This document shows, in pieces, positions 607 through 33,857 of a stretch of 64,000 nt of DNA (its first letter is position 1; each line of letters starts with the position of its first letter). The notes below the pieces were generated by a model. It worked only from the letters and a program-made list of their open reading frames with translations. It was not told the DNA's origin and did not search any database. This DNA comes from Branchiostoma floridae (Eukaryota > Chordata > Leptocardii > Amphioxiformes > Branchiostomatidae). The stretch is from assembly GCF_000003815.2 (NCBI RefSeq), contig NC_049994.1, forward strand, positions 15,855,711-15,919,710. Direction: 5' to 3'. The translations under genes were made by a program, and so were the position numbers.

Positions 607-3600
607 ATGGCTCAGGCAAATCCCGATGCGCTGCATCCGGACCGGAAGTGCGTTCCGAAATCCCGGAATCCGAATCCTATGTACGCGCCAAACTCCGTTC
701 ACACTGACTTAAATCCGACGCGAGGGCCGGATTCTCACCCTGAAGGCCGTGGCAATAATGAGGACTGTGCCTTCACCCAACCGTGTACTGGTGGTGAAAC
801 GCACCAGAACAGCTATAAAAACTCCTATAGACCAGCCAGCAATGATAACAATGGCTATGTCAAGCCACATGAGGATGGTGATAATGCTAACCCCGGCAAC
901 CCCGGCATTCATCACCATCACGGTACATGTGAAGAAGCTAAACCAGCCGAGGCCAGGCCAGATAACAATTCTGGTGATTCCTGCCTCCGGTCATGTGCTG
1001 TTACACTTGAAAAGGAAACTGCCTTTGGATCAGCTGACAGCAAAACCAATCCCTGTGCTGTCGTCAAGCCAGAAGCTGGTAGATTCCAAGACAATATCGT
1101 CGAATCAGCTGACAATGATGGTAACCCCTGCATCAAATCGTATTCAGTTAAGAACCAGGAAGACGATGGCACAGATGTCGGGCCAGCCGACTGTGAAGTT
1201 ATCCAGCCATACGCTGTGAAGTACCAAGAGCATGACGACAGTAGTAATGATCGCCCACACCCAGGAACCGATGCTGTAACTGAAAACGGACAAACAGCAA
1301 ACATTGCCCCTGAAGAAGACGACATTCAGCCATATGCTGTCGCATACATGGACCAGGATGACATGGCGTGTGCCACAACGTCAGGGGACAATCACGCCCA
1401 AGCTAGACTGTCCTTGCATACACCAACGACGGCTCCAAACAGCATCAATGATGTCTTGGCCAACCCATTGAGCAACGATGCAAATCCTGCTAGTCTTGTC
1501 AGTGAGGAAAGGCAACAGGTCCAGAATGCGCTTCATCTGAATCCGGTGCCCGTGCCAAACGTTCGCCATCCTGCAGCCTGCAGTAAGTTATATTCATATT
1601 TCAAAACATTTGGATATTCGCACGGTTAATACATCCTCCTAACGCAGGAACATCCAACAGCGAAACCGCCTGTCTGGATGTACCCTGCTCTTTCAGCCGT
1701 CACCCTTAGTTCCTGACCGAACTGCTTATGAATATTAATGTGCTTACCCTTATAAATGCGGGATCCCTTTTGAAAACTGAAAGGTCTATTCTCTGATTGG
1801 CTGACAGCTGGTTTGGGGGGACGCCCACAGGAACTAAGAATGACGGCTTAGAAAGCAGGGTACATCCAAACAGACAGTTTCGCTGTTGGATGTCCCCGTA
1901 TAGGAGGATGGGTCATTTGGATGAAGACAGACCTTGGATGACATTTAGAAGTTTATACAAGATCAAAACAAATTTGTTTTGTTTTCTTTGAGAAGCTACA
2001 CCATTTGTATTTGCATCCTTATTGTAGCCACTCACTCACTCATTCTCCTGTATGTGGTGCATAGAGCCGACTGAATGTACCACGGTTCTTCACCGCCCTC
2101 TGCTCGATGCTGCTGATGGAGTGTGATGTTGATACTACGCAGATTGTAGCCAAGGGCTAGAAATTAAACTTCTGTAAAGAAACATTTTCCTTAAAATAAC
2201 TCTTTAGATTGGGATAACGCTTACTTTTGATAACATTGCTGTTAATGTGATTTTTTTTAGTTTGTCACCTGGTGTGCTCAGCTGTAACCACGGCTACAGT
2301 TTTTGTGTTGTGCATCGTCAGCGGAATCTTTCTCTGGCCACTCCATAACTATAGCACCAACCCACCAACGGTACGCTTCTGTTCGTTTCTTTGTGTTTGT
2401 TTGTTTGTTTGAATCTCTGTTTATTCATGAAATCTCAAATCGGCCTACAGGTCGCTTTTCACTGAGGTTATAAGGGAAGAGGGAAGAGTCAGACAACTTA
2501 TATAACAAGCATTCTGTGTTATAGCCATATAATTTGTTGCTTTGTAGACCATTAGTGAAGGCAGCTATTTTCCCTATGAGTTCCTATATGCTTCATACTT
2601 ATCTAAACACTCCATGGATTTTTATGTTTGTTAAATCCATCAGTGTGCTTGTAACAAACCTAATTTCATTTTTGCTATGTAGACTAATGGATGTAACAAA
2701 TATAAGAAGCCATGCAGGATATGAATATTATCATTATTAAGGTGAACCAATGACTAGATAACCCTCTATCTACAGCCGACAGGAACGCTGGCTACTACCT
2801 TTACCTCTGGTCCGACTGGATTCTATAGTTCTATCCCCACACCGCCGGCAGTCTCCAACAGCTCACAACGTACAGGTGAGACAAGCCCGAACCTTCTGGC
2901 TCAGGGCTCGAAGTACGTTTTTCTGCGTACCTGCCCTGTTGCAGGTAACATTGAAAATCACCTGCACCAGGTAAATTTTACCTGTACCACTCTAAAACTG
3001 TTCAGGAACCATTGCTATATTTTCTTTTATACTTTAAATATACGTGGTAACAGTCCGAGGAGAAAATTACAATCCATATACACCTGCATCATAGGACATT
3101 TATGTATAAAATCCAGTACATGGACCAGTGCAGGTTAGGCGCAGGTAGACACCAGAATTTGACCTGCACTAACCTGCATATGCAGGTGATATTTCGAGCC
3201 CTGCGGATGTGTTGGCATAAATGGTTAATCTTGGGCAGTGTGGTGGTATGGGAAGTACCTTTGGGTCATAGTGTCCAGACATTGGATACTTCACAAGATC
3301 ATTTCCTGTGGGGAGTTGCGAAGGCTGTATTTATCAACAATAATGCTGTTATATTGTTAATTGCTTCTCAACAATATTCATCAACCTTCCACTTAAGACC
3401 CCAGTGATACTATATAATTACCAGACCTTTCTAAGCCCTAAAACAGTTTACCAAGTGCAAGTTACTTTTTAGTCATGTTTCAAACCTAGAGACAACAGAT
3501 GAGAAATAATGATTTCACAAAGAAGTTAGCTTGAAGAACAACAAGCCCAGGATATAAAAGCAATGACAACAATGACTCGATATCTAGTGTCAGATCGCGA

Positions 3601-4760
3601 TCGCCTAGAAGGCACGTTCAACAGAACCCCAGTTTATAATGGTTTCTTTGACCACGGGTAGAAACTTGAGCCCTGAAAATTACAATTTGTATTTCAAGAC
3701 ATAAAAATAGCAAAGCCAATTCAGCTGTGAGGAAGACATTTTCAAGTTGTAGTTACACATAGACAATTTGATAGGACTGATTTGAAAGTGGAAATTTGAA
3801 CAAGGTTGATTTAAAAAAATCTAAATTTGCAGATGGCATAGACTACATAAAATATTTGAAATGCGAGTGAGTATTGCACTCACAATTTGTGTCATTGTTA
3901 TTATTACGTTTGTTACAGAAATTCACAACAGAAAGATGCAGATGATCACCTTTGGTGGGAGAGGAACAGAACCTGGAAAATTCAAAACCAACTATGGAGT
4001 GGCTGTGTCTGATGACGATGAGATGTTTGTGACTGATCTTTTTAACAATCGAGTTCAAGTCTTCAGCATAAACGGGACTTATGTCCGCCTCTTCCCAACG
4101 ATAGTGCCGGATGAAAATTGGGGAATGTTCCCCTTCAGCGTTGCTATGGACGGGGAACCAGGCTACCTGTGGGTAGTGGGGAGTAGGACTGCATATCATC
4201 CTGAGTCACATGTCGTTCAGTACAGTAAGAACGGCCTGCCCATAAAGAAGTTCGGTGTACGCTTCGTGGGTCGGGTATTCCATCCCTGCATTGCCTTAGA
4301 CGTGCGCAACAACAAAGTAATCGTGGGAGAGGGGGATGCAGTAATGCTGTTTCACCCGAATGGCTCTCTTGTTCGGAGTTTTCAACTGTTAGACAAAAAA
4401 GGAATAAAGCGGTTAATCCGCGGAGTCGTATCGGACAAGGAGGGAAATATTTTGCTTACGGACTCATACAAAAGCATTGTGAAGTACAGTCATTCTGGAG
4501 ACAAGATGTTGGAATTTGGAACCAAAGAAGGACTGCTTGCACCAAAAGGTATTGTTTTGGACTCCTCGGGTCACATCATCGTGGCATACAGTGGCAACAA
4601 CAGGGTAGACATGTTCACAAGCCGCGGGGAGTTTGTCCGTACTGTCGCGAACATTACACACCCGTGGGGTCTCGCCATGGGACCGCATGGACAGTTGGTG
4701 GTGACTAACTCACTTGACGGCACTGTAACCATCTTTCCACGCCACATGGTGTTTCCCTGA
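607..4760 (+). CDS. NHL-propeller single-pass membrane protein, copy 1
   Basis: Four exons join in frame to 675 aa: 607-1582, 2261-2370, 2776-2875, 3919-4760 (phases 1, 0, 1). Residues 1-325 are acidic and low-complexity, with one NPMY motif and PYAVxYxxxDD repeats (two intact near the end, others decayed). Residues about 333-353 form one hydrophobic helix followed by an N-glycosylation sequon (NYS). The linker (to about 395) is Thr/Pro-rich with another sequon (NSS). The last 280 residues are NHL repeats (GKF..NYGVAVS, FVTDLFNNRVQVF, GIVLDSSGHIIVA), a beta-propeller fold. There is no N-terminal signal peptide, so a type II orientation is inferred. The ATG at 607 has A at -3 and G at +4, but an earlier exon in the gap cannot be excluded. 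NHL propellers usually bind RNA or protein; the ligand here is unknown. Confidence 0.8.
1632..1910. mobile_element. MITE with ~85-bp inverted repeats, intron 1 of NHL copy 1
   Basis: The left arm starting CATCCTCCTA is repeated in reverse complement ending TAGGAGGATG. The arms stay similar through the shared block ACATCCAACAGCGAAAC and the TTAGTTCCTG block. No convincing target duplication is seen. It has no coding capacity. Confidence 0.75.
2902..3203. mobile_element. MITE with CAGGGCTCGAA termini (hAT-like ends)
   Basis: The ends are CAGGGCTCGAA and TTCGAGCCCTG. Internal arms are rich in alternating CAGGT/ACCTG blocks that can fold back. It lies in intron 3 of NHL copy 1. The flanking 8 bp do not match, so it is old or was rearranged after insertion. 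Confidence 0.65.
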
Positions 4761-4999
4761 TACTCTACAGAATGGGAGACAGCGCTCTGACACAGCCCAG
4801 ACACAATAGTTGCTCCTGACACTCCTTTCCATTACTGACATAAGACATTTACGTACTAGTTCTACCTTGAGGTGAAAACTAGGTACACTTGTCTAACAAT
4901 TCACTCTTTTCTCTTTGTCAGTGATAAATGCTGTCTAAGCCATCCCACTAGCTTTGTTTTCACGTATTGCGTAAAGTTTTTACGTATGAAGTGGCACAG

Positions 5000-5600
5000 G
5001 CTTGTATATCAATGGCAGGTGGTCACTTCCACAGGTTTGATCGTATAATAATAGCCAGGTGGTCCTTATGAAGAGGTGGTCACTCGTACAAGTTTGACTG
5101 TATATCAATGGCCAGGTGGTCCTTATCTAAAAGTAGTTACTTGTACAGGTATGACTTTATGTCAATGGCCAGGTGGTCCTTATGTAGAGGTGGGCCGCAT
5201 GCACAGGTTTGATTGCATCACAATGGCCAGGTAGTCAGTCGTACAAGTTTGACTGTATATCAATGGCCAGGTGGTCGTTATGTAGAAGTGGTCACTTATG
5301 AGGGTTTACTGTATTAAATATCGATGGCCAGGTGGCCCGTATGTAGAGATGGTCACATGCACAGGCCTAGGTTTGCGAAAAGTTTTGACTTATGAATAAG
5401 CAGTCAACAGGGTTGCATATCAGTGTCAGGTGGTCACTTACACAGGTTTGATTGTATAATAATGGCCAGGTAGTAACTCGTACAAGTTTGACTGTGTGGT
5501 CAGGTGGTCATTATGTAGAAGTGGTCAGTATACGTATGGCTCTTCATCAATGGCCAGATACGTAATCTGTATGTTGAAATGGTCACATGTACACAAGTTG
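5000..5600. repeat. Minisatellite, ~58/39-bp modules, block 1
   Basis: Diverged tandem copies share the core AATGGCCAGGTGGTC and GTTTGATTGTATAA. Two module types alternate, one ending in a CACTTGCACAG-like stretch and one in ACTCGTACAAG. Related blocks occur at about 6240-6470 and 14100-14790. Confidence 0.85.
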
Positions 5601-6676
5601 TACTTAATATGAATATTCTACCAGCGCAAAAACATCAGTTTGAGTCTAGAGACGAATACGTTGGGCGAGTTCACTTCGATAATTCCCAGGGGAGGGAAAC
5701 TTAATGGGAATTCTAAATTCATAGAGACACATTTTGTAATTGTCTTCACAAAACCGCCCCAGTGAATGTAATCTAACCACTTATAAGAGTTATCGTTAAA
5801 TCTCGTGAACATTAGAATGTGGCCCTTTTTTACAGTGTTAAAGTCTCAATTTGTTTATTCAATATTTTTGGACGCCTACACACATTGTGTCTCGGCCCTG
5901 GCTGAGTCTCATGATCAGTTGTACTGCTGAGTGCGAGCCGATTCCAGAAGCTTTACCGTAAGTAAGAATTGTCTCAATCCTGTTTTAACTTAAAGGATCT
6001 CTTGCCAATTTATACGATCCCAATTTATAGGATATTTGTTCTTACTGATCTGAAGTAGAACCACATTCGTATGTTTGTTTGTTTGTTTGTTTGTTTGTTT
6101 GTTTGTTTATTCTTTATTAAACCAGGGTAAAAGTATGTCGCCTGAATTTGCATATCAATGTTAAGTGCGTATGGACTATTCCTTGGGCATTTACATGCCA
6201 TTTTCCTTCATGAATGAATGAGCGGTGCGAATTGTTTACATCAAGTGGTCACTTGCACATGTTTGTATATCAATGACAGGTGGTCCTTATGTAGACGTAG
6301 TCTCTTGTACAGGTTTGATTGTGTAACAATGGCCAGGTGTAGTCTCTCGTACACGTTTGACTGCATATAAATGGCCAGGTGGTCCTGTACAGGATTGACT
6401 GTTTATCAATTGCCAGGTACGTGATCCTTATGTTAAAATGGTCACATGTACACAAGTTGTACTTTATATGAATATTCTACCAACGCCAAAACACCAGTCC
6501 GCATCCAAGGACGAATAAGTTGGGCGAATCCACTTCGATCATTCCCAGAGGAGGGAAACTTAACGCCATGGGAAATCCAAATTTATTGAGACGTAATAAG
6601 TTTGTAATGTCTTCACAGAACTGATCCAGTGAATGTTTTTCAACTACATATTAGAGTTATCGTCAAGTCTCGTGAC

Positions 6677-7109
6677 TAGGGCTGGGTACCGGTACAGAAA
6701 ATTCAGGTCCAGGTCCGGTTCAGGTCCAAAGGATTAGGTCCAGGTCCGGACCTGAACCTGGAACTGATGTAGTATGACTCATGCCAATGGTCCATTTTAC
6801 TACAAAGAAATCTGTTTGGTGGAGTACTAGACTTACACTGGCGTTTTAAAATCCTACAACGCTAACTGCACCTGTACGATTGGCTGTAAAACTTGGTAGA
6901 AATTACTATAAATTCTACTCTACTTCACTCTTCTTATTTTCTTCCATCTGCAAGCGCTAAAACGTGTGAATGCCTGATAAAATAATCTGTTAATTTTCGA
7001 ATCGGTCCAACATCCGGTCCACCTAATTTTTTCAGGTCCGGTTTTTCTGGACCGGTCCAATAAGAAAAACCGGTTTTGTACCGGTACGCAGTACCGATAC
7101 CCAGCCCTA
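6677..7109. mobile_element. hAT-type MITE with 8-bp target site duplication
   Basis: A 433-bp element begins TAGGGCTGGGTACCGGTAC and ends with its near-perfect inverted copy. It is flanked by exact CTCGTGAC duplications (6669-6676 and 7110-7117). The two paralogous spacer sites, near 5800 and 15030, lack it, so they act as empty sites. There is no coding capacity. An 8-bp duplication is typical of hAT transposases acting in trans. Confidence 0.93.
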
Positions 7110-7971
7110 CTCGTGACCATTAGAATGTGCCCCTTTTGACAGCACAGTGTTCAAGTCTCAATTTGTTTATTCAATATTTTTGAACGCCTACACATATTAT
7201 GTCTAGGCCATGACGGAATCTCATGATCAGTTGTGCTGCTGGGTTCAATCCGATTCAAGAATTTTACCGTAAGTACAAAATGTTACAATCCTTTTTTGTT
7301 TTTATCTTGTTGGAGCTAGGTCCTGTCACGTTATAACAAAGGATAACTTTAAGAATCTCATGCCAATTTATAGGATGCCAATTTTATAGGATATTCTTAC
7401 CGATCTGAAGTAGAAACACATTCGTATGTTCCATTCTTAGGGCATTTACATGCTATTTCCATGTTCTAAGTTCATGAACGAATCAATGGTGCAAATTGTT
7501 TACATCAAGTAGATGTTACAGTATCTCTGTTCTGATAAATCAACAAACCTGTAACGCAGTTTCAACAGCACTGTTATCATCATCATACAAAGGGGATCTT
7601 CCGTTGACTAAATTTCCCCGCGAACGTAAATTTGTACACAAAGAAGGAATTCAAAACTAATGACCGTTTAACCACAAGTAAGCAAAAAATGTACCATATC
7701 AACATAGCAAGTTGTTTCAATACAGTAGGTGTATCTGATTTTATGAAGTACCGCAGATTTTATGAAGTACCGCAGGCCTAAGCTATACTATGACGACGTT
7801 TCACATGAGCAATCAACAATGTCCCTTTGGAGAACTGTTCAGATGAACGTTAAGTTTATGTATACACACCACGAAAAAATGGAAATCTGTGGCCAGAGGC
7901 TAGCGTACTCAGTAAAGATGCAATATACCAACTTGTGATGAATTCCAAAAACAACGTCAGGCAAAAACAAC

Positions 7972-8067
7972 ATGTCAGCTGCAACTCCAACAAGTTTTTC
8001 AAATCTTAGCATTGATATGAATTGTCTGGCATCAGAAGATGACTCGTGGGCAGCTTCATCTACATAG
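7972..8067 (+). CDS. Small conserved upstream ORF, NHL copy 2
   Basis: A 31-codon open frame (Met-Ser-Ala-Ala-Thr-Pro...) lies about 270 bp upstream of the copy 2 start codon. The same frame, with one amino-acid change (Ala to Val), sits upstream of copy 3. It could be a translated uORF or a remnant of a coding first exon. A pyrimidine tract plus AG about 50 bp further on suggests a 5' UTR intron is possible. Whether it is translated is not shown by sequence. Confidence 0.35.
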   Translation: MSAATPTSFSNLSIDMNCLASEDDSWAASST

Positions 8068-8334
8068 TGATTAATTTGTTTGTCTGACCTTCGACGTTGC
8101 ATCGTTTTGTTTTCAGTGGGCGGTGAAACTACTACAGTGCACACAGTCAAATAGGATTTGGGATTTTAAAAAATCGTTCACGTGTACTGCACACACAATA
8201 GTCAACGAAGTAAAAGAAAGAGACGTCGAGTAGCGCGATAAGGTTTGAAACTTTGGAAAAAAGCCACGGAATCGGAGCAAAGAGCTGTCTGTTATCACCG
8301 GCAGGTACCATATACTTTACATCAAAATCGCACC

Positions 8335-11300
8335 ATGTCATCAAGAGGTCTCGAAGCCATGGCTGAAGATTTATCCTCCGACGCCATCTTCTTGAATAAA
8401 CTTATGCCAAAACCAACTGCAGAAGCTGCACAGCCTCTCTCCATGCAAGCTGCCGGAGGAGGCAATCTCCACATCCCAGGTAAATGTGAGGGAAATGAAC
8501 AAGACGACGATGACCAAGGCGCTATTAAAAGCGATGCTGCAGTTGAGACCAGTACTGGTGACACATACCCTATAGCATACATATGCGAGGATGGCAGTAC
8601 ATGCAGAATGAAGAAAACGTCGGAGGAGACGAAAACTGAACCCTTTCGGGCAAAGAAGACAACCAGCAAGAATAATAACGACATGAACGTGGCATATAAC
8701 GATAGTTTCAAGGAAACTGACAGTAACATGCACACGAAGGCCAGGGATCAAAATCCGATGTACACACAAGGCACCATGAATCCTCCAAACGACATTACTT
8801 TTAACTCGATGTACACTCAATGCACCATGGACGTTATTCCAAACCCGATGTACACACAAAGCTCCATGAACCCTCCTCCAAACCAAGTTTCTCGTAATCC
8901 GATGCACAGTCGAAGCATCATGACCCCTCTGCCAAACGAAGACAATTCTAACCAGATGTACACTCAAAGCAAAATCAACCCTTCTCCAAACGACGTTACT
9001 CTGAACCCGGTGTACACACAAAGCACCACCAACCCTTCTCCAAACGACGATACTCCTAACCCAATGTACACACAAAGCACTATGAACCCTCCTCCATACG
9101 ACGATACTCCTAACTCGATGTACACACAAAGCACTATGAACCCTCTTCCAAACGACGATACTCCTAATCCGGTGTACCTACAAAGCATCATGGCCATGGA
9201 GCCAGATGTCAGCCCTGGACAAGCCTCCAAGTCAAACAACAGTGATGGCAACTTCTGCACTCAGCCATCAGCTGATACACGTCAGCAAGGTGATGAAGTC
9301 ACCTTTATACCTGCTACCAACGATGGCAAACAACTGAAAAATGGTGATGAGGAAAGTGTCGTTGAGGCAGCAAACAATGAGGACATCAAGCCGTATGCAG
9401 CTAAATACCAGGAAGACGACGAACCCGCTACTGAGTCAATTGGATGTGATGCTATCCAGCCTTACGCTGTTAAATACAAGGAACGTGATACTACAGCTGA
9501 AAACGGACAAACAGATAGTATCACCTCTGATGATATAGACATTAACCCATATGCTTCCGCATACATGAACCAGGATGTCATAGCGGGTGGTACAACGTCA
9601 GGGGACAATCAACCAACAGCGGCTCCAAACAGCAACAATGATGTCTTGGGCAACCCATCGAGCAATGATGCAACAAATCCTACTGATGTTGTCAGTGAGG
9701 AAAGGCAACATGTCCCGCATGCGCTTCATCCAAACCCGTTTTACGTGCCAAACGCCCAGCATTCTGCAGATTGGGGTAAGTTGTTCCTTGATGATGATAA
9801 TGATGATGATGATGGTGATGATGATGATATGATGATGATGATATTTCAAAGCATTTGGTCAATCTCTCGGTTTTGTATGCCAAATGGTTTCAAGACAGAG
9901 CTTGACTTGCAGTTAAATTTATGAAAGATGACAACAAGTCATTTATCAGGCTGGACGTTCTGTTTGTGAAGCTATACCAAGCTTAAATGCCGAATCTCCG
10001 GAGAGAAATTCTTTGTCATCAATACTTAAGCTTTTATTGATTGTCTGTTTATTATTGAGATGCCTTTTTTTCTTTTTATACAATTCATTTAAAACTGAAG
10101 TGGCTCATATGTAATGCTATGATAATCTTTTTTTGTAACGTCCAATGTTTCAGAATGTACACGTCAGCAGGTATGCTCAGTTCCAACAGCGGTTACAGTC
10201 GTTGGTCTATTCATCGTCAGCGTAGTCTTTTTCTGGCTATTCTTTGATACCAACACACCAGCGGTAAGCTTCCGTCTTGCAGCCTTGGGTCTTTGTTGCT
10301 TCGCTGACCTTTTTTTTAAAGAAAGGTTTTGTCCCAATTTCGGCCGTCGTTTGGATAATTCATTAAAATGAAACTATGACAATATTGTTAAATAGCGCGG
10401 AGTCTTCCTCTGGCTATTCTTTGATACCAACACAAAAACGGTAAGCTTCCGTCTTGGAGCCTTGTCTCTTTGTTGCTTTGCTGACAATTTGTTGAGATGT
10501 TTCATTACAATGATTCAAATATTATATCGTTTAGATACTTTATTACAATGAAACTATGAAAATGTTGCGCAACAGTTGACAGATGCTTACATCTGTCAAA
10601 ATTCAACCATGGGCTAGATACTCTTACCGGATGCGGATGTATCAATGACAATGACAATGAAGTTTATTGCATTTTCATGCCCCATTATATTGGGGCTAAA
10701 TGCAGTCAGTTTGGTACATATGGATTAATTGAAAAGCTATACGTATACTACAGTTTATATGCTTCTTCTCTAATCTTAAAACATGCGTGGACGAACTCAC
10801 AGAGTTTTTCCAGTATATCGGAGTTAGATGATGACATAAGGTATTTGAACACATCTTTCCTCAACCTACAGCCAACAGTGACTGTGGATACTACCTTTAT
10901 CTCTGGTCCCACTGGTGTCCCCACTCCACCGGCAGTCTTCAACAGCTCACAACATGAAGGTGAGATTGACACCCAAAGTGCATCTAAGTGTGTTCATATG
11001 AAGAGTACAAGTTGGATAGAGTACCTCAGAGTCTGTTTCACTGTGTGTCAAGATATCGGGCACTAAACGAGATTATATTTGGAATATTCCGGACACAATT
11101 TATTATTTATTGCAGAAAACCACCAGGGACCGACTGGATGCTGCAGGTTTAACTCCTCAACGACGGCAGTCTCCAATGGCGCCCAACCTGCAGGTAAGCC
11201 TTGCAGGAAACAGCACGTACCGTTGCTCAGGTCAGAATTTCTTGAGTGAGAGTTAAGGAATTTTTATGTATACAGTAGAAGCCGCTTAATTGCACACCCA

Positions 11301-11433
11301 ATTTGCCAGCGCATTTCGTGCAAGTATCCGGGAGGTGCAATAATGTTAACTTAGTGGACCGTACATGTTTGGGATTTGGGGATTCCGTGCAATAAACAGA
11401 AGTGTGCGGTTATCCGTTAACTGGCCTCTACTG

Positions 11434-11478
<45 letters not shown>

Positions 11479-13706
11479 GAACATATATATTGTTCATGTT
11501 GGCATCCATCAGTCGCTCGCCGTCTGCCTGGTCTGCACGTGACTTTTGAAGGTGAAGGATCCGGAGGTGTGTGCACTTCCTTCTCCACCCTTTCGTGTAC
11601 TGGCGCACCATTTAAGTCCCACAGGGACAAGACTTGCATTCCACGTGTAAGACGGCCCCAGCAGATGCAGGTTTGGTGTTCGGAGTTTCCGTCTCCTAGG
11701 AGGACTTCCGACGAAGGATGCAAGGGGTTCCTCCTACCCCTGACTCGTGTATAGCTGGTGCGTCATGCCCGAACATGCCCCTATGGCCTGCCACTGCCAC
11801 AAAGGCCTGTCATTGCCACTAGCCACAGCTAGCTACTCATTTACACTTGAGTTGAGTGAGGAAAGTCGTGTAAAGTGCCTTTTTTATAGGTGTAGTCAGT
11901 CACCAATAGAAGAATGAATAACTGAAAAACTGTAACTGAAAGTCATTTATGCCACGCGTCGAAAGATACGCCCCCCCCCCCTCTCGTGTTCACTATAACA
12001 CGTCCGGTAACTTTCTAGCGAAGACCAATTAGATCGCTGCTGGCAGGTCAACGGCATTCCTAAAGCCCCCTTTACAAATCAAGAATTTAGCTCGGGCGGG
12101 TTGTCAGCGAGCTCTAAATTACGAGGAGGTATGACCCTGATGCCGACGAAGAAACTCTGCCATTTGTGCGTAGGCATCAGGGTCATGACTCCTCGCCATT
12201 GAGAGTTCACTGCCCACGCATGCTATGTGAATATATGTCTACAAATGCCGCTATTTGTGCAGCAATCTGTAGGAGCCTGGTAGAAGCTAAGACCTTCCTA
12301 CGGACGTAGATATATACGTTCACGTGAACCCGNNNNNNNNNNNNNNNNNNNNNNNNNNNNNNNNNNNNNNNNNNNNNNNNNNNNNNNNNNNNNNNNNNNN
12401 NNNNNNNNNNNNNNNNNNNNNNNNNNNNNNNNNNNNNNNNNNNNNNNNNNNNNNNNNNNNNNNNNNNNNNNNNNNNNNNNNNNNNNNNNNNNNNNNNNNN
12501 NNNNNNNNNNNNNNNNNNNNNNNNNNNNNNNNNNNNCGGCCGAGCTAAATTCTTGATTTGTAAAGGGGGCTTAATGAATAAGGCAGTAACTGTCGAGTTG
12601 CGAGCGTACCATTCCTTATCATGTAGATGTAATGAACCTAGCAGTTATGTATATATAAAGTGGAAGCCAGTTAATTGCACAACGGATAATCGCACACTTC
12701 AGTTAATTGCACGAAATCATTAAGTCCATTGGTGGTGCGGTCCAGCTTAATAACTTCGCTTTGCTGCACCATTCGGATAATTGCACGAAATGCACTGGCA
12801 AATGGGGTGTGCAATTAAACGGCTTTTACTGTACCATTCTTTTCACTTCTTGCAGCAAATCATGACAGAAAGATGCAGGAGGTCATCTTTGGTGGGAAAG
12901 GAGAAGAACCTGGAAAATTCATAACTAATTACGGAGTGGCCGTGTCAGCTGACAATGAGATATTTGTGACTGACTTATTTAACAATAGAGTTCAAGTCTT
13001 CAGCATAAATGGGACTTATCTCCGTCTCTTCACAACGGTAGTGCCGGGTAGAGATAAGAAAATCCATCCCTTAAGTATTGCTATTGACGTGGATCCTGGC
13101 TACCTGTGGGTAGTGGGGAGTAGAGATATATTTCCCACCGATACTGATGCACTTGTCGTTAAGTACAGTAGGGGCGGACTACCCGTAAAGAAGTTCGACG
13201 TACGGTTCGTGTGCCGTTATCGCCATCCCAGCCTTGCGATTGACGCGCGCAACAACAAAGTTATCTTGGGAGAGGGACATACAATAATGATGTTCCAGCC
13301 AAATGGCTCGCTCGTTCGGAGTTTTGAAGTGTTCAGCAAAGAGATTACCCATAAACTAGTCGGCGGAGTCGTGTCGGACATGAAGGGAAATATTCTGCTT
13401 ACGGACTCCTATAGAAGCATTATGAAGTACAGTCATTCTGGAGAGAAGATATTGGAATTTCAAACCAGTGGAGGCCAACTGCTTGACCCTGAAGGTATTT
13501 GCGTGGACTCCTTGGGTCGCATCATCGTAGCAAACAAAGCCCAAAACAGGGTGGATATGTTCACAAGCCGCGGGGAGTTTGTCCGTACTGTCGCGAACAC
13601 TACACACCCGTGGGGTCTCTCCATGGGACCGGATGGACAGTTGGTGGTGACTGACCCATTTGGCGCCACTGTGACTGTTTTTCCACGCCACATGGTGTTT
13701 CCGTGA
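8335..13706 (+). CDS. NHL-propeller single-pass membrane protein, copy 2
   Basis: Five exons give 855 aa: 8335-9775, 10154-10263, 10872-10959, 11116-11193, 12856-13706. The start ATG (context CACCATGT) is the first in frame; a second Met follows at codon 9. Residues 140-285 contain about nine tandem 16-17-aa units of the form NPMYTQSTMNPPPNDD. Strict NPxY appears six times in the tail, with variants NSMY, NQMY and NPMH. Three PYAxxYxxxD repeats follow. The transmembrane helix is about residues 492-511, from an exon of exactly 110 bp as in the other copies. The linker has an extra 78-bp exon not found in copies 1 and 3. The C-terminal NHL domain has NNRVQVF and GRIIVANKAQNRVDMF blades. Intron 4 carries several MITEs and the 204-bp gap. 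NPxY motifs are known to bind PTB domains and clathrin adaptors; this supports a cytoplasmic tail but is inference here. Confidence 0.8.
10396..10485 (+). repeat. Duplicated 3' edge of exon 2 with its splice donor
   Basis: This block repeats the last ~45 bp of copy 2 exon 2 (CTGGCTATTCTTTGATACC) plus the donor GGTAAGCTTCCGTCTTG and about 45 bp of intron, 177 bp downstream of the real donor. It has no acceptor of its own in view, so it is probably a non-functional decoy. Confidence 0.8.
11271..11435. mobile_element. Tigger/pogo-like MITE
   Basis: The ends TACAGTAGAAGCCGCTTAA and its inverted partner (GGCCTCTACTGTA) are flanked by TA dinucleotides. CAGT-type ends plus a TA target site resemble pogo/Tigger elements. 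An (AT)n tract follows directly. A related, more diverged copy lies at 12655-12833. Confidence 0.6.
11843..11890 (-). mobile_element. SINE 3' core fragment
   Basis: The stretch GAGTGAGGAAAGTCGTGTAA is the reverse complement of the conserved core seen in the fuller SINE-like copy at 31553-31823. Upstream bases (11500-11842) show no other recognisable feature. Confidence 0.45.
12061..12573. mobile_element. MITE with ~34-bp TIRs, contains assembly gap
   Basis: The left end (TAAAGCCCCCTTTACAAATC) and the right end are inverted copies that continue through GAATTTAGCTCGG. Within it, 12265-12332 carries one arm of the CTGGTAGAAGCTA fold-back family also seen at 18.4 kb. The rest is hidden by Ns (12333-12536). 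It lies in intron 4 of NHL copy 2. Confidence 0.75.
12655..12833. mobile_element. Tigger/pogo-like MITE, second copy
   Basis: Inverted ends are related to those at 11271-11435 (GTGGAAGCCAGTTAATTGCA on the left, GGCTTTTACTG on the right), with internal repeats of TAATTGCACGAAAT. It ends 22 bp before the NHL exon of copy 2, so it abuts the acceptor region. Confidence 0.55.
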
Positions 13707-13796
13707 TACTTTGCAGACTGAGGTAATAGTAGTAGTTCCTTACACTCCTTTCTATTACCCAAAACATACATGTATACAATAGCTTTACCAGTGAGA

Positions 13797-13893
13797 CGTT
13801 GGGTCTCGCCATGGGACCGGATGGACAGTTGGTGGTGACTGACCCATTTGGCGCCACTGTGACTATATTTCCACGCCACATGGTGTTTCCTAG
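13797..13893 (+). pseudogene. Duplicated 3' end of the NHL exon
   Basis: About 97 bp repeat the last 32 codons of copy 2 (GPDGQLVVTDPFGATVT), followed by a second 3' flank that resembles the 3' flank of copy 1. The stop codon is changed (TGA to AGA). It looks like a partial duplication or gene-conversion product downstream of the real stop at 13706. Confidence 0.8.
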
Positions 13894-14099
13894 ATACTCT
13901 CCAGTATGTGAGACACCGCTCTGCCACACCTCAGATACTAGTAGCTCCTGACACTCCTTTCTATTACCCACATAACATAATAAGATACTTAGTACTAGTT
14001 CTACCAGCGAGTCGAGAACTGGTTCCGCTGGTCTTCAGAGTTCTATTTTCTCTTTGTCAGTGATGAATGCTGTCTGAAGCATCCGATTCTGTTTTGACT

Positions 14100-14790
14100 T
14101 ATTGCGGAAAGTTTTGACTCATGAAGAAGTGGTCACTAGCACATGTTTGCATATCAATGGCAGGTGGTCCTATTGTAGAAGTGGTCACTTGCACAGGTTT
14201 GATTGTATAACAATGGCCAGATGGTCCTTATGAAGAAGTTGCCACTTGCACAGGTTTGATTGTATAACAATGGCCAGGTAGTTACTCGTACAATTTTGAC
14301 TGTATATCAATGGCCAGGTGGTCCTTATGTAAAAGTGGTCTCTTGCACAGGTTTGATTGTATAACAATGGCCAGGTAGTCACTCGTACAAGTTTGACTGT
14401 ATATCAATGGCCAGATGGTCCGTATGTAGAAGGGATCACATGCACAGGTTTGATTGTATAACAATGGCCAGATGGTCCTTATGTAGAAATGATCACATGC
14501 ACAGGTTTGATTGTATAACAATGGCCAGGTAGTCACTCGTACAAGTTTGACTGTATATCAATGGCCAGATGGTCCTTATGTAGAAGTGATCACATGCACA
14601 GGTTTGATTGTATAACAATGGCCAGATGGTCCTTATGTAGAAGTGATCACATGCACAGGTTTGATTGTATAACAATGGCCAGGTAGTCACTTGTACAATT
14701 TTGACTGTATATTAATAGCCAGGTGGTCCTTATGTAGAAGTGGTCACTTGTACAGGTTTGACTGTTTATTAGGTACCTGATCCTTATGAG
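14100..14790. repeat. Minisatellite, ~58/39-bp modules, block 2
   Basis: At least ten modules are present. Spacings of the GGTTTGATTGTATAA core are 57-58 bp, or 97 bp where a 39-bp ACTCGTACAAGTTTGACTG module is interposed. These arrays give runs of spurious open frames on the minus strand. Confidence 0.9.
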
Positions 14791-15816
14791 TTATGTTGAA
14801 ATGGTCACATGTACACAAGGTGCACTTTATATGAATATTCAACAATGCCAAAACATCTGTCCACGTCTAGTGACGAATAAGTTGGGCGAGTCCACTTCAA
14901 TCACTCCCAGAGGAGGGAAACTTAACGCAATGGGAATTCTAACTTTATTAAGACATAACTTGTATGATTGTGTCTTCACAAAACCGACCCAGTGAATGTT
15001 ATTTAACTACTTATTAGAGTTATCGTCAAATGTCATGACCATTAGAATGTGCCCCTTTGTGACAGCACAGTGTTCAAGTCTCAATTTGTTTATTCAATAT
15101 TTTTGACCACCTACACATATCATGTCTCGGCCCTGAGTCAGTCTCATAATCAGTTGTCCTGCTGAGTGCTAGCCGATTCTAGAAGCTTTACCGTAAATAC
15201 TGAATCCTTGTTCTTTATCGGATGTACAACTTTCTCATGCCAATTCATAGGATGCCAATTTATAAGATATTTGTTCTTACGGATTCGATGTAGAAACACA
15301 TTCGTATGTACTATTCCCAGGACATTTACATGCTATTTTATTTGGTGCAAATTGTTTACATCATGTAGTTATATCCGATCTTCTGAAGGACCACAAATAA
15401 ATTAACAAACCTATACATGCCTTTCAACAACACTGTTATCGTTATCATACAAAGGGGATCTTCCGTTAAGTAAATTTCCCCGCGAACGTATATTTTTCCA
15501 CAAAGAAAGAAAAACGAAAAATGAATGACCGTTTAACCATAAGTTAGCAAAAAAGTACCATATCAACATAACGAGTTGTTTCAATAGAGTAGATGTATCT
15601 GATTATATGAAGTACCCCAGGACTAAGCTATACTATGATTTCAACGCGACGTTTCACATGGGCAATCAACAACTTTGGGGAATTGTTCAGATTAACTTTC
15701 TAGAAGTTTCCACACCACGAAAAATGGAAAAATGTGGCTAGAGGAAACTGTATTCAGTGAAAGATGCGGTATACCAATTTGTGACGAACCCTAAAACAAC
15801 ATCAGGTAAAAACAAC

Positions 15817-15912
15817 ATGTCAGCTGCAACTCCAACAAGTTTTTCAAATCTTAGCATTGATATGAATTGTCTGGTATCAGAAGATGACTCGTGGGCTGCT
15901 TCATCTACATAG
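15817..15912 (+). CDS. Small conserved upstream ORF, NHL copy 3
   Basis: 31 codons, identical to the copy 2 upstream ORF except one residue (Val for Ala), ending in TAG at the same place. See the copy 2 entry for possible roles. Confidence 0.35.
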   Translation: MSAATPTSFSNLSIDMNCLVSEDDSWAASST

Positions 15913-16430
15913 ACATTAATTTGTTCGTCTGTCCACTGACGTTTTCAGTGGGAGGTGAAACTAATACAGTGCACACAGCCATACAGCATTCGCGATAAAA
16001 ACTGTTCACGTGTACGGCACGTAAGATAATCAATGAAGTGAGAAGAAAGAGACGTCGAGTAACGGGAAGGTTTGAAACCTTGGAAAAAGACCACAGAATT
16101 GTTGCAAAGAGCTGTCTGTTATCACCGGCAGATACCGCATTCTTTACATCATAATCGTAACGTTCTTCCAATCTTTGCACTGATATGAACTGTCTGGTAT
16201 CAGAAGATGACTCGTGGGCTGCTTCATCTACATAGAGATTAATTTGCTTGTCTGTCCATTGACGTTTTCAGTGGGCGGTGAAACTAATACAGTGCACACA
16301 GCCATACAGCATTCGCGATAAAAACTGTTCACGTGTACGGCACGTAAGATAATCAATGAAGTGAGAAGAAAAAGACGTCGATTAACGGGAAGGTTTGAAA
16401 CTTTGGAAAAAAATCATAGAACTGGGACTG
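15852..16430. repeat. 323-bp direct duplication of the NHL 5' flank
   Basis: The segment starting near GATATGAATTGTCTGGTATC (15859) recurs 323 bp later (16182) and both copies run through ACAGTGCACACAGCCATACA and GAAGAAA(G/A)AGACGTCG. Copy 2 has one unit of this flank. Two promoter or 5' UTR units therefore sit in front of copy 3. Confidence 0.9.
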
Positions 16431-16508
16431 CCTGATTCGACAGGCAGATACCACATTCTTCATTCCTCACATCAAAATCGTAACGTGCCGTCCAGAGGTC
16501 TCGAAGCC

Positions 16509-19500
16509 ATGGCTGAAGATTTATCCCCTGATGCCACATTTTTGAGTGAAAGTATAGCAACACCAGGTGCAGAGGCTGCGCAGTCTCTCTCCAGGTAAGC
16601 TGGCGGAGGTGGCAATCTCTACATTTCCGGTAAATCTGAGGAAGATGAACAAGAAGATGAACAAGAACTCTCTATAAAATGCGATGCTTCAGCTGAGAAC
16701 AGACAAACGATCAACATCAGTGCTGGTGATTTTGATACTTACGCCATTGCATACATATGTAAGGTTGATAGTGCATGCAGCATGAAGAAAACATCGGACG
16801 AGACGAAAACGGAACCCTTGGTGTCCAACAATGATAACAACATGAACTTGGCAGGGAACAATGGTACTGACACTTTCAAGGGTAACACGCGCAGTAACAA
16901 GTCCAGGGATCCAAATCCAATGTACACACATAAAAACACGGACCCTTATCTGGTGTCCACCCCAAAAAACGTTAACCCTAATCCGATGTACCTGCCAAGC
17001 ACCATGAACCCCCCTCCAAACGAAATTAACCCTAATCCGATGTACCTGCCAAGCACCACGGAGCCAAACGTCAGTCCTGGACCCGCCTCCAAGTCAAACA
17101 ACAACGATCGCTGCATCCAGCCATCAGCTGATAACAGTCAGCAAGATGAAGAAGCCAAGTTAACGCCAGCTAACAACGAAAATGCTTGCCTTCAGCCGTA
17201 TGCTGTTACAAAACTGCAAGATGAGGAAGTGGACACTGTTGTTGAGAACAATCACTGTATCCAACCATATGCTTTTAGATGCATAAAACGTAATAAAACC
17301 GTCTTAAAATCATCTAACTGTGATGCCGCCAAGCCCTATGCTTTTGGATACCAAGAAGATGACTTCGACTCAGCTAAGAGCTGTGGTTATTCCTGCACCC
17401 AACCATATGCTGTTAAATACCAGGCAGACGATGGCACTGATGTCGGGCCAGTTGACTGTAGTGTCATCCAGCCATATGCAGTTGGATACCAGGAACATGA
17501 TAATGATTATCCACTTCCAGGGACTGATGTAACAGCCAAAAATGGACATACAGCCTCACTCGGTATAAATTCTGATGATGTGGACATTAAACCATATGCT
17601 GTTAGATATCAAGAACATGACGATAGTGGTAATGATAACCCATCCTCAATAACTGATGCCGCCTCTGGTGATGACGAAGTCGACATTACACCGTATGCTA
17701 CCGCATACATGGACCAGGATGACATGGCGTGTGGCACAACTTCAGGGGATACTCAAACAAAGGACCCATTCCAGAAGCGGACAGATGCTACATACAGCAA
17801 CAACGATGTCAACGATGCTTTACATCGGAATCCGATGTATGTGCCAAACGCTCAACGACAGGAAGCTTTCGGTACGAAATTTTTACATTTTAAAGCCCCT
17901 GTCCTGCTGATAATCATTTTGTATTTTGCCCTTCTTAGCTGGTTAATTAATCAGATCAGTAAAACTTGACATATTTTGTTCTCAATCATAGTCGATATGC
18001 AATAGGATAGTTTTATCTAAACTTACTGTGTGTAAAAAATTATTTTAAGATTGAATTTGAAAATTGTTTAAGGCCCTAAAATACATTGGGTTCCTTTGAT
18101 ATTTTCTGTTCAACGCTTTGAAGGCGTAATATATTTTCCAGGGTGTGCATATGGCCGGCTGGACCGGGTACTGAAGCCAGCTGCAGTCCTAACGCTTTTC
18201 ATCTCCGCTGGAATCTTTTTCTGGTTATTCTTTACCTATACCACATCAGTGGTAAGTTGTGTATTCCGGACTTGTCTTGTTGTCCCTTTCCTGCCGATTA
18301 TGTCCGTTGATTTGTTTAGTACTACCAGTTCCTGAATATTTCAGACAATACATGTTGATCTTGTACAAATAGGGTCCAAATGAATGCAGCATGTTGACAT
18401 TTGAATAGAAATGCATAGGGTAGAAGCGTTACATACCTTAAGCCGGGTTCACGTGCACGTATATATCTATGTCCGTATGAAGTTCTTAGCTTCTACCAGG
18501 CTCCACAGCTTGCTGCAAAAATAGGGGAAATTGTAGAAATATAAACACATAACATGCCAGCGGAGTTAACTGGCCGAGGATTCAGCTGATTCCACTGGCA
18601 TGTTATCTGGCCGAATTATCTAGCGACCTGTGGAGCCTGGTAGAGGCTAGGACTGACATCATATGGACTCGAATATATACGCACTCAAACATTGATCTTT
18701 TCACATGCCACAATCTGGCCAGTGTTCAGATGACATGATATTAAAATATATCTCCAGCCGTCAGCGACAATGGGCACTGCACTCACAACTGGTCACTCTA
18801 CTCCGGACACTGCCCCAACCCCTGGCCATTTTGCTCCGGACACTTCCTTCACCAGTGGTCACACTCCTCTGGACAGCGCCCCCACCACTGGTCAGCCAGC
18901 CTGTTGCAGTTCCAACAGGACGACCATCAGGACGGCATCTTCTGAGGGAGCAGCACCCAGACAGAAGTCGTCGGTCTCCTACGAGTCACAACATGAAGGT
19001 GAATCTATTTACTGTGTGTGGGGGGGGGGGGGGGGGTATTTTTCCCGAGCAAAAACCCTGTTTCGCCACCGTTTCCCCTGTTGGGTCCTTTGGGCCTTAC
19101 TCTTCGCAAGAAATTCAGCTTGTCTCAATCATGATGTTTTTGACCAGAAGAGATGCTGTTAGGTACAATTTAACCCGTAACCTTGTAGTGACCTTCGGGT
19201 CACACCTTGAAATGACCTTCAGCCCTTGTTACGTGGTGACCATTAAGTAAAAAAAAAACATATCAAAGAAGCGCCAAATCGTTGTAAATGTCTCTTGGTT
19301 GTGTAAAAATGCACTTAATCGACGAATCGGATGGTTCTATCTACAGAAGTGACTCTACTTATTTCTGAAATTAGTGGAATATTAATCTTCCAACCCTTGT
19401 ACTGTTACAACTGTCCAAGTCTAATGCCTGGTCATACGTTATAGACTGTTTCATTTGCTAAATAAAGATTATAAATCATTACAGTAAACCATGGCAGATA

Positions 19501-20329
19501 CAAGACGACGAAGACAACCTTTGGTGGGAGGGGCAGAGACCCGGGAAAATTTGGCGAGATCTCTGGAGTGGCCGTATCTCCCGATAATGAGATATTTGTG
19601 AGTGACTCTCAAACCAACCGTGTCCAAGTCTTTGACATGAACGGGGCCTTTCTCCGCAGCTTCACGATACTGCCGTCAGATATATACTGTATAGTAAACC
19701 CTGCTGATATTGCAGTTGACGGAAAAGGCAACATATGGGCAGTTGATCCGAGTATCTTTGCCAGTTCCTGTCCGCATGTTGTAGTGCAGTATAGTCGAGA
19801 CGGCCGGCCAATGTCCAAGTTTAAGGTGGGCTTTAGTCGAAGTACTGTTCCATCTGCACACATTGCTGTTGACGTACGCAATGACAAAATCATCGTCGGA
19901 GAGAAAGATGAGATAATGATATTTGAACCCAACGGCTCGCTTGTTCGTAGGTTTGTAGAAGCGAACCTGAAAATGGGTGGCGTCACGTCGTCCATGGCGG
20001 GAAATGTCCTGGTTACGGACTACGTTAGCAAAGTCATGGTGTACGATTCCTCAGGCGTCTTATTATCTAAATTTGGAATCTGGGGAACCATACAAGGAAA
20101 ACTATGGACACCCCTAGGGATTTGTGTGGATCCCTTGGGTCGCATCATTGTGGCAAACAATGTGAACAACCGGGTAGACATGTTCACAAGCGGCGGGGAG
20201 TTTGTCCGTACTGTCGCGAACATTACAAACCCGTGGCGTATGGCTATGGGTTCGCATGGACAGTTGGTGGTGATTAACGTGAAAAACAGCAATGTAAGCA
20301 TCTTCCTGCGTCACAGGGTACTTCCTTGA
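16509..20329 (+). CDS. NHL-propeller membrane protein, copy 3 (in-frame stop near the 5' end)
   Basis: Exons: 16509 or 16782 to 17871, 18142-18251, 18758-18998, 19485-20329. The ATG homologous to the copy 2 start is GTG here. From the next Met (16509) the frame is open for 29 codons, then hits TAA at 16596, where copy 2 has CAA. The same frame continues beyond. Starting at Met 16782 gives 761 aa. The tail has four NPMY motifs and seven PYA repeats. The transmembrane helix (about 376-395 in that numbering) is preceded by Arg/Lys residues (GRLDRVLK), which favours cytoplasmic N terminus. The 241-bp linker exon encodes 3-4 repeats of TxGHxxPDT type, mucin-like. The NHL domain is complete. It may be active through the downstream Met or splicing, or be a young pseudogene. 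Confidence 0.7.
18449..18686. mobile_element. Fold-back MITE in intron 2 of NHL copy 3
   Basis: Arms of about 60 bp run from ACGTGCACGTATATATC through TTCTACCAGGCTCC and return inverted (GGAGCCTGGTAGAGGCTA ... GAATATATACGC). A second, internal palindrome is built on CATGCCAG/CTGGCATG. One arm is shared with the gap-containing element at 12.3 kb. Confidence 0.7.
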
Positions 20330-21031
20330 TGTGAGAAGACCAGTGAAGAAAGAATCGATCTGACATTTGTAAATATAGTGTGCATCACTCATCACTTGTG
20401 TCAAATTGCTATTGGTCATGGGTGAGCAGACATTTGTTATCAGTAGAAATCTAAACCCACTTGGGAGATTAACATTTTTTATTTCTTTTACTTTTTTAAA
20501 GTTTTGTGTTACACTAACCGTTTTCGCATACTGATTGGTGCTGTTTTCGCATAGTGATTCGTGCGCATCACATAAGATTCGTACGAATTTTATAAGGTTC
20601 GTGCAAAAGCTTAGGTACCCCTGATGACAACCGAGAAGGTTCTTCCCTGATATGAATTGTCTGGTATCAGAAGGTGACTCGTGGGCTGACAGATTGGTTT
20701 TTGTTTTCTTGGGGCTTGATGTAGATGACATGAAGATTGCTTTTTGTCTGTATTAGACACTTTGGCAGGATGATTGACGTATAGATTTTTTTCGTGGGGG
20801 CTCAGTCTGTATGAAGATTGGTTTTGTCTGTATCAGACTCGTGGGCTGGATGATTTACATATGGATGATTTTTTTTCGTGGAGGCTCAATCGGTATTGAA
20901 GCTGTCAAAATTTGTAACTTTATCTCACGTGGCACCAAAAATGAATAAACAAACAAACCTATGTTAGAATTACCATTAACTATACTGTCTAAGAAAGTCT
21001 TGCGAAGCTAAATATTCCCCGAAAGGAAAGA
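20330..21031. other. Degenerate 5'-flank repeats between NHL copies 3 and 4
   Basis: The motif GATATGAATTGTCTGGTATC recurs at 20651, and two shorter decayed units (CTCGTGGGCTGGATGAT-like, TTTTTTTCGTGG) follow at about 20750 and 20820. No gene is recognised. Confidence 0.6.
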
Positions 21032-21863
21032 ATGGACAATCTAAAGACTAAAGAATCTAAAATTTATCAAGAGAAATATCATAGCATATCAGAATCGCAA
21101 ACAATACAACATGTCAACAACTACCCAGCCAGGGTATCAATTACTCTGAGCACTTGTATAACATGTATCTTAGCGCTGATATGGATTTTCTGGTATCCGA
21201 AGAGGATCCGTGACCAGCTCATTTACATACAAATCAATTGCTTTTAAATTAGTCTGGCGACGTTACCATTTTTTCAGTGGACAATCATGGTTATGTACAT
21301 GTTGCAAAATACCATAAGTACGGCCTGCCTATAAAGAAATTTGATGTGAGCTTCATGACTCGCGATCCCCATCCCAGCATTGCGATAGACCTGCGCAATA
21401 ACAAATTTATCGTGGGAGAGGAGATACAATCATGTTGTTCCAGCCTGATGGCTCTCTCGTCAGGAGTTTTAGAGGTTTAATCAAAACGCACAGCGTGTTC
21501 ATCCGTGGAGTCGTATCGAACAGATATGGTAATATCCTGTTCATGGACTCCTATAGAAGCGTTAAGGTGTACCATCACTACGGAGACAAGATATCCGAAT
21601 TTGGAACTGTTGGACGCGGCGAAGGCCAACTGAGGACCCCCACGGGTATCTGTATGGACAAATCGGGTCGAATCATCGTCGCTAATCATGGCCACAACCG
21701 TGTAGACATGTTCACAATCGGCGGGAAGTTTGTCCGTACTGTGGTGAACATTACAAACCCGTGGGGCGTCGCCATGGGTCCGGATGGACAGTTGGTGGTG
21801 ACTAACACATTTACATACACTGTAACTATCTTTCCTGATATATATACTCTTCTAGTGCCCTAA
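21032..21863 (+). pseudogene. NHL family copy 4, truncated and frameshifted
   Basis: The 5' part (21032-21247) is an open frame of 71 codons with one hydrophobic stretch, lying over sequence related to the 5' flank of copies 2 and 3. An acceptor-like TTTTTTCAG (to 21277) leads straight into the middle of the NHL domain: the first blades are missing. A 1-bp deletion near 21425 shifts the frame (compare GGAGAGGGACATACAATAATG in copy 2), after which NHL blades continue to a stop at 21863. Deletion plus frameshift indicate a dead copy, unless the short frame is expressed alone. Confidence 0.75.
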
Positions 21864-33113: not shown

Positions 33114-33857
33114 TCAGGACAAAACAGACTCTTTGACCTTCCCGTCGTCCAATGACATTGGAATCGAACCGTAACTTCCCGGAAGCCCCTTCCCGGGAAT
33201 TTCGTGTTTTTCCTTTGCCTCAACGTCGACCTTCTCCGTTTTAGCCTCAACTAACCTCCTCACAAAGAAACCGGCTACGACAACAAGCACAATCCATATA
33301 GCCTCGTGAACTACCATCATGGACGGACCGGAAATCTGGAAATCATAGTATTGGATCGCCCATGCAATGAAAACAACAATCAAATACATGAACACAAAAC
33401 CAAAGACATAGGCAACGCGACCAAACGTACTCAAAGTAGTGTCTGGACTGCCATTGGTCAATTTTCGTTCTACGTAAAGGCCAAAGGTCACGAGGACGCA
33501 TATGACCATGGCAAAGCCCCAGTTGTTGAAAGGGATGACGATTGGTTCCCAAAGACGGGTCCAGGGGTTGCCGTTTCTGTCAGGGATCCAGCTGTAACAG
33601 TAGAGGATGGCGGGAAGGAAGGCCACGGTAGGGATGACACGTGACCAGGTAGGGAGGTGCTTCCAGAACGGCAGGCCGAACAGCTGGAAACAGAAACAAG
33701 TTCAAGGTCAAATTATCTAAGTGGTAAGATGTACGTTAACGTTACTCTAATATAAGGGCTACGGATTTACTATAAACATTACTTTTCTGTCTGTCTGTAT
33801 GTATAGATGTCTCTGCTGGTGTTCATCTGTGGATCCGTGTGTGTGCGTGTGTGTTTG

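Follow-up and report, generated by a model that had tools for sequence, protein, structure and literature searches.

An amphioxus gene family encoding tyrosine-motif tails, a predicted membrane segment and NHL propellers

A 64,000-nucleotide stretch of the Branchiostoma floridae genome (C16:15855711-15919710; here, the window) carries three loci, copies A, B and C, of a gene family in which a repeat tail, a transmembrane (TM) exon, a linker and an NHL propeller are encoded in this order; a relic, D, lies downstream. Our analysis shows or strongly supports the gene plan, a family of dozens of copies, a six-bladed fold of the TRIM2/3 type, and constraint on both the propeller and the tail motifs. 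We consider it fairly probable that these genes form a family, expanded in this lineage, whose products are recognition proteins of the cell surface with a single-pass type II layout and a phosphotyrosine or adaptor tail; for these we infer ligand binding and signalling.

Gene models in the window

Copies A, B and C share one order: repeat tail exon, 110-bp TM exon, linker exon(s) and a propeller contained in a single exon. In the models, which combine splice signals with homology, introns are bounded by AG/GT and follow a common phase plan (tail-TM, 1; TM-linker, 0; linker-NHL, 1), to which copy B adds one linker exon of phase 1-1. The features are:

607..1582, + strand: copy A exon 1, repeat tail; ATG 607; followed by splice donor GTAAGT (1583; phase 1); frame open from 565, counted stop to stop
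2261..2370, + strand: copy A exon 2, 110-bp TM exon; AG acceptor, GTACGC donor, phase 1 to 0; KD hydropathy 2.17
2776..2875, + strand: copy A exon 3, P/T/S linker; sequon SNSSQ
3919..4760, + strand: copy A exon 4, NHL propeller, ending with the stop codon; completes the intact 675-aa model
8335..9775, + strand: copy B exon 1, repeat tail; contains a 54-bp coding tandem repeat
10154..10263, + strand: copy B exon 2, 110-bp TM exon
10872..10959, + strand: copy B exon 3, linker; sequon FNSSQ
11116..11193, + strand: copy B exon 4, predicted second linker exon; phase 1-1; sequon FNSS
12856..13706, + strand: copy B exon 5, NHL propeller, ending with the stop codon; completes the intact 855-aa model
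13790..13891, + strand: extra duplicate of the NHL exon 3′ end, behind copy B
16509..17871, + strand: copy C exon 1, repeat tail with a broken frame; TAA 16596-16598; next in-frame ATG 16782
18142..18251, + strand: copy C exon 2, 110-bp TM exon
18758..18998, + strand: copy C exon 3, linker of mucin-like T/S/P repeats; sequon NRT
19485..20329, + strand: copy C exon 4, NHL propeller (modelled)
21265..21839, + strand: relic D, broken part of an NHL exon; two overlapping frame pieces

The frames of copy A (607-4760; 4 exons of 976, 110, 100 and 842 bp) and copy B (8335-13706; 5 exons of 1441, 110, 88, 78 and 851 bp) are open from ATG to stop. Copy C (16509-20329) has 4 exons of 1363, 110, 241 and 845 bp. 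For relic D, we found no TM exon with a TM hidden Markov model (HMM) and no tail exon in the genome tail search. Thus, the exon plan that a first-pass annotation had ascribed to three genes and one relic holds for A, B and C, with the C frame broken by the TAA, but is not shown by relic D, which retains part of the NHL exon only. The 110-bp length reported for the TM exon is exact in all three copies.

Three further stretches lie within these loci. A second TM exon fragment (10399-10437) occurs downstream of the copy B TM exon. Reading the copy C tail exon through into intron 1 (17872-17969) gives a second hydrophobic stretch and then a stop, possibly a propeller-less isoform and possibly chance. 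In copy A, an in-frame ATG at 3861 and a hydrophobic stretch before the NHL exon (3861-3918) resemble a signal peptide; we rejected this start, as it is probably a pyrimidine tract read as codons.

Family across the genome

Across the genome searched (513 Mb, 431 contigs), the copy C propeller matched at least 137 places (a lower bound, with 731 candidates), and the copy C tail gave 127 listed matches at ~75 places. We measured linkage with 76 of the 127 tail matches, picked by eye as one per place and giving 75 places at E <= 0.01, and with 89 of the 137 NHL matches, the 48 from C17:18.3-18.9 Mb being left out. Among the matches listed, an NHL lay within 15 kb downstream on the same strand at 53 of the 75 tail places, and a tail lay upstream of 53 of the 89 NHL places. 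Random placement gave 0.85 expected and a maximum of 4 in 1000 trials. This genomic linkage supports a design that joins tail and propeller. The first-pass annotation had described a tandem family, which fits the three window loci, but the tail and NHL searches reveal a family that is genome-wide and not only local.

Reading of 20 NHL loci (L001-L020) revealed a tail open reading frame (ORF) in 18 and, in 19, a TM exon ahead of the propeller. Ten peptides (3 from the window, 7 fetched) went into the TM HMM and match it by construction; at 10 of the 19 matching loci, the TM peptide was outside the build. In L006 the intact tail belongs to a neighbouring copy and the locus's own tail is split into two frame pieces, in L017 the tail lies just beyond the stretch read, and L004, which contains 200 N, has no tail among the matches listed. 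We also read five NHL loci chosen for having no tail match. Four possess a tail that has diverged but retains a PY[A/I] motif; three of these match the TM HMM, one strongly and two weakly, and L035 does not. The fifth, L036, contains 833 N. Five of the 22 tail places with no NHL among the matches listed were fetched as well: L030 and L031 contain NHL pieces, L029 and L032 a TM exon and linker, and L033 a linker only. No other ectodomain was seen joined to the tail in these five. The NHL frame of L030 is open, with a diverged or damaged middle, and L029 has a reverse-transcriptase-like ORF (5850-7442) behind the linker and no NHL exon within the 8 kb read.

The C17:18.3-18.9 Mb region holds 48 listed NHL ORFs, mostly long open frames of ~300-965 codons (many 530-620), and frames at the remaining 89 NHL places span ~240-390 codons. 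Eight C17 loci that we read (L021-L028) served as a control class. In L021, the one C17 example scanned, Pfam detected NHL repeats and no RING or B-box; upstream, the same frame contains repeats of coiled-coil-like character and a linker. A tree of 38 propellers places the eight C17 sequences in a single clade (support 1.0), with all others outside it. As deep branches outside this clade (L037, L038) keep the tail, fusion of tail and propeller probably happened once, ahead of the duplications. Copy C groups with L001, L002, L003 and L004 (support 1.0), and this clade has a KPxAV-type TM segment and a mucin-like linker; copies A and B fall in a group with short SNSSQ-type linkers.

Propeller, tail and topology

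Pfam NHL repeats (PF01436) were detected in all four propeller ORFs scanned, at 46.5-66.9 bits (cut-off 20). The predicted structure of the copy C propeller has six blades and 24 strands (predicted template modelling score 0.86), and in structure comparison the TRIM NHL structures (TRIM2/3/71) rank first, with the PAL and PknD propellers also matching the fold. TRIM-NHL domains are the closest by sequence as well as by fold. No Pfam family, RING and B-box included, was found in the three tail ORFs, and the predicted models of A and B start with the tail. TEN_NHL (PF25021) scored 12.5 bits in copy C, below its cut-off of 27.1, and was not listed for A or B. The models contain no YD or EGF exons, the NHL exon being the last, and neither a YWTD propeller nor LDL-A modules appeared in the ORFs scanned.

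The propeller is under purifying selection (ten pairs), and its top-face loops evolve fast (10 pairs among 25 NHLs). The top-face pairs, to which 4 pairs among the 8 controls were added, overlap the ten used for purifying selection; since the sequences are related, p-values do not represent independent tests. We dropped top-face diversification as a sign specific to receptors, as the C17 control behaves alike. Top-loop net charge was also set aside as a clue to the ligand, being too scattered (mean +2.5, range -7 to +9, n = 25; control mean -0.6, n = 8).

The tail is long, acidic and N-terminal, with repeated NPxY and IQPYAVxYQExD motifs. In 26 tail ORFs (the window's three, L001-L020 without L004, L008 and L017, and L029-L033, some with short untranslated-region or intron read-through; L034-L038 lie outside this count), NPxY occurs 64 times against 2.8 in shuffles and PYA 78 times against 2.3, upholding the motif assignment made at first pass. 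The PYA consensus is I-Q-P-Y-A-V-x-Y-[Q/M]-[E/D]-x-D-[D/E]. The final NPxY is mostly close to the end of the tail exon, just ahead of the TM exon, and two of the 26 tails have no NPxY. Copy A is repeat-poor, with one NPxY and two PYA, and its membrane-proximal motif reads NPVP, the proximal tyrosine being lost. In copy B, the NPMYTQ motif is repeated by a 54-bp coding minisatellite (8830-9192, 6.7 copies), and the number of motifs may vary as a result. In nine pairs, with motifs picked in one member of each, motif cores are identical at 190 of 233 aligned positions, compared with 1463 of 2327 for the rest of the tail. The tail is fast-changing, with its motifs kept. Conservation of tyrosines as a class was tried and rejected, as it showed no excess; an excess was seen in the motif-core test.

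The TM exons read contain one strong hydrophobic segment (best 19-mer mean 2.13-2.72, n = 18). Lysine plus arginine residues are more numerous on its N side than on its C side in 16 of the 18, equal in 2 and lower in none. This test covered 18 of 24 distinct TM exons, near duplicates and unclear tail ends being left out; the N flanks of L001 and L003 include a lysine possibly read across the donor, which does not affect the direction. Linkers consist of 50% proline, serine or threonine, and 16 of 21 contain a sequon. Their sequons number 21 compared with 7.8 in shuffles, and tail sequons number 94 with 106 expected; the linker count covers 21 of 22 linkers, without L004, and those of L001-L003 may be cut short. 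The window features that first suggested this orientation, namely linker sequons (NSS in A, NSS twice in B, NRT in C) and basic residues ahead of the copy C TM (R, R, K), are present. Because of the charge pattern and because sequons are enriched in linkers, not tails, a type II topology with the tail inside and the propeller outside is supported at the level of sequence. In models A and C, a scan based on hydropathy alone revealed nothing else as strong as a TM segment or signal peptide; the next-highest values, 1.15 and 1.19, come from the propeller in each case. Sequons in the propeller form columns at residues 52, 149 and 245 (in 16, 18 and 15 of 25), which is no more than suggestive for topology. 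We dropped their counts as proof of topology, as they are near the shuffle value and the control class has its own conserved sequon.

Elsewhere in the window, 39786-44621 contains long-interspersed-element-like ORFs, one of CCHC type and another, 1192 codons long, that by eye resembles endonuclease and reverse transcriptase. Two multi-pass membrane ORFs in opposite orientation (30801-31517, +; 33114-33701, -) look alike by eye and match no Pfam family above cut-off.

Possible roles and comparison with known systems

In the mechanism that we propose, the tail would lie in the cytosol and the propeller would be displayed outside the cell, where its fast-changing top-face loops may bind varied partners such as microbial, self or neighbouring-cell molecules. 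Clustering would let tyrosine kinases phosphorylate paired tail tyrosines, and phosphorylated PYAVxY and NPxY would recruit PTB/SH2 adaptors, leading to signalling or uptake. Candidate tail peptides for such phosphorylation-dependent binding are NPMYVPN and IQPYAVKYQEHDD. We entertain more tentatively a specific version, in which about a hundred germline type II receptors serve as an immune or self/non-self repertoire, each exposing a TRIM-type NHL with a diversified top face and carrying in the cell a multivalent tail of paired tyrosines (PYAVxY). Such a repertoire would draw on a fold whose best-known examples are ubiquitin ligases of the cytosol. If the surface family is confirmed, a cytosolic TRIM-type propeller would once have been fused to a tyrosine-motif tail and a membrane anchor, and the product would have multiplied into a large family at the cell surface. 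This would add a receptor class to an early chordate lineage that already has very large innate repertoires, and would account for genes that automatic annotation may label TRIM-like.

Several results count against a surface recognition family. The partner is not among the matches listed for 22 of 75 tail places and 36 of 89 NHL places, and the weakest tail matches (E near 0.01) may be chance. Top-face diversification is equally strong in the separate C17 NHL class (1.31 vs 0.48; top-loop dN/dS, the ratio of nonsynonymous to synonymous rates, 1.31 in four pairs) and so does not single out a receptor role. Propeller sequons barely exceed shuffles (2.48 vs 1.94), and the C17 class carries its own conserved NGT, in 8 of 8, at another place. 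In the tail, tyrosines as a class are no more conserved than other residues (48/63 vs 1068/1450, p 0.77, six pairs), and dN/dS exceeds 1 in 2 of 10 pairs (1.24, 1.29). The residue at Y-5 is V or I in 4 of 64 NPxY motifs and F or Y in none; as this hydrophobic residue is missing, the motifs depart from the classical endocytic (FxNPxY-type) form, which weakens the endocytic tail first proposed. Finally, the copy C tail is interrupted at codon 30 from ATG 16509. As this TAA sits within a good splice-donor string (AG|GTAAGC), it may be allelic, mark a start that has decayed or belong to an intron missed by the model.

Adhesion or homophilic self-recognition, a role proposed for the NHL domain of teneurin, is an unlikely alternative; here the tops of propellers would bind one another, or one set partner on an adjacent cell, and the tail would contact adaptors or cytoskeleton. 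The many diverged copies and variable top loops fit it, as does teneurin itself, in which an NHL with its top face exposed comes in the same type II arrangement (PMC5851990), but our models are without EGF repeats or a YD shell and foreign ligands fit variable loops equally well. We regard LDLR/LRP-like endocytic or scavenger uptake, with the propeller capturing or releasing ligand and NPxY recruiting Dab2/ARH-type adaptors, as improbable. The enrichment of NPxY, its usual position just before the TM exon and the LDLR-like plan of an extracellular propeller above an NPxY tail favour uptake; the Y-5 counts, the lost proximal tyrosine of copy A and the two tails without NPxY oppose it. The opposite topology, a cytosolic propeller as in the closely related TRIM-NHL proteins and a tail in the lumen, is very improbable given the positive-inside pattern, the enrichment of sequons in linkers rather than tails, and the hydropathy scans of A and C. 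We give equally little credence to a family consisting largely of decaying duplicates with no current function. The copy C stop, relic D, the split L006 tail frame, the L030 propeller and the reverse-transcriptase-like ORF of L029 point to decay, but the NHL is under purifying selection, A and B are intact, and most of the at least 137 NHL places have no internal stops. Decay is possible for copy C and relic D and unlikely for the family as a whole. The receptor-like orientation of the first-pass annotation stands as a supported prediction, argued from genome-wide linkage, TM charge and linker sequons.

Among known systems, the closest propellers in sequence and fold belong to TRIM-NHL proteins (TRIM2, TRIM3, TRIM71, Brat, Thin). 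These are cytosolic; unlike them, the amphioxus genes have no RING or B-box in the exons scanned and have a TM exon and tyrosine-motif tail instead. The PknD extracellular domain and PAL/PAM contain propellers that match the fold, with kinase or enzyme partners and a domain order other than tail-TM-NHL. LDLR/LRP, compared for working plan only, combine cytoplasmic NPxY with an extracellular propeller; the amphioxus proteins differ in having NHL rather than YWTD repeats, predicted type II rather than type I orientation, no hydrophobic Y-5 and no LDL-A or EGF modules found. Within the same genus, PMC8195603 describes an expansion of DED-TRADD-N propeller proteins, likewise lineage-specific with variable propellers; those are WD40 propellers joined to DED-TRADD-N, not to TM segments and NPxY/PYA tails. 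Unusual Branchiostoma TRIMs with MATH domains have also been reported (PMC3503706), and the tail-TM-NHL architecture is not described in the parts of these two papers available. The suggestion of an undescribed system is consistent with searches of one open-access library, in which we found no description of the family; papers held elsewhere and database annotation lay outside these searches. A membrane-anchored extracellular NHL propeller has a precedent in teneurins (PMC5851990), and the PAL and PknD propellers share the fold. According to PMC5851990 and PMC6428715, teneurins are type II single-pass membrane proteins with an N-terminal cytoplasmic region and an exposed, extracellular six-bladed NHL propeller, the order that we predict here. 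The amphioxus models differ from them in lacking EGF repeats, a TTR/FN plug and a YD shell, in a TEN_NHL score below cut-off, and in a fold nearer to TRIM NHL.

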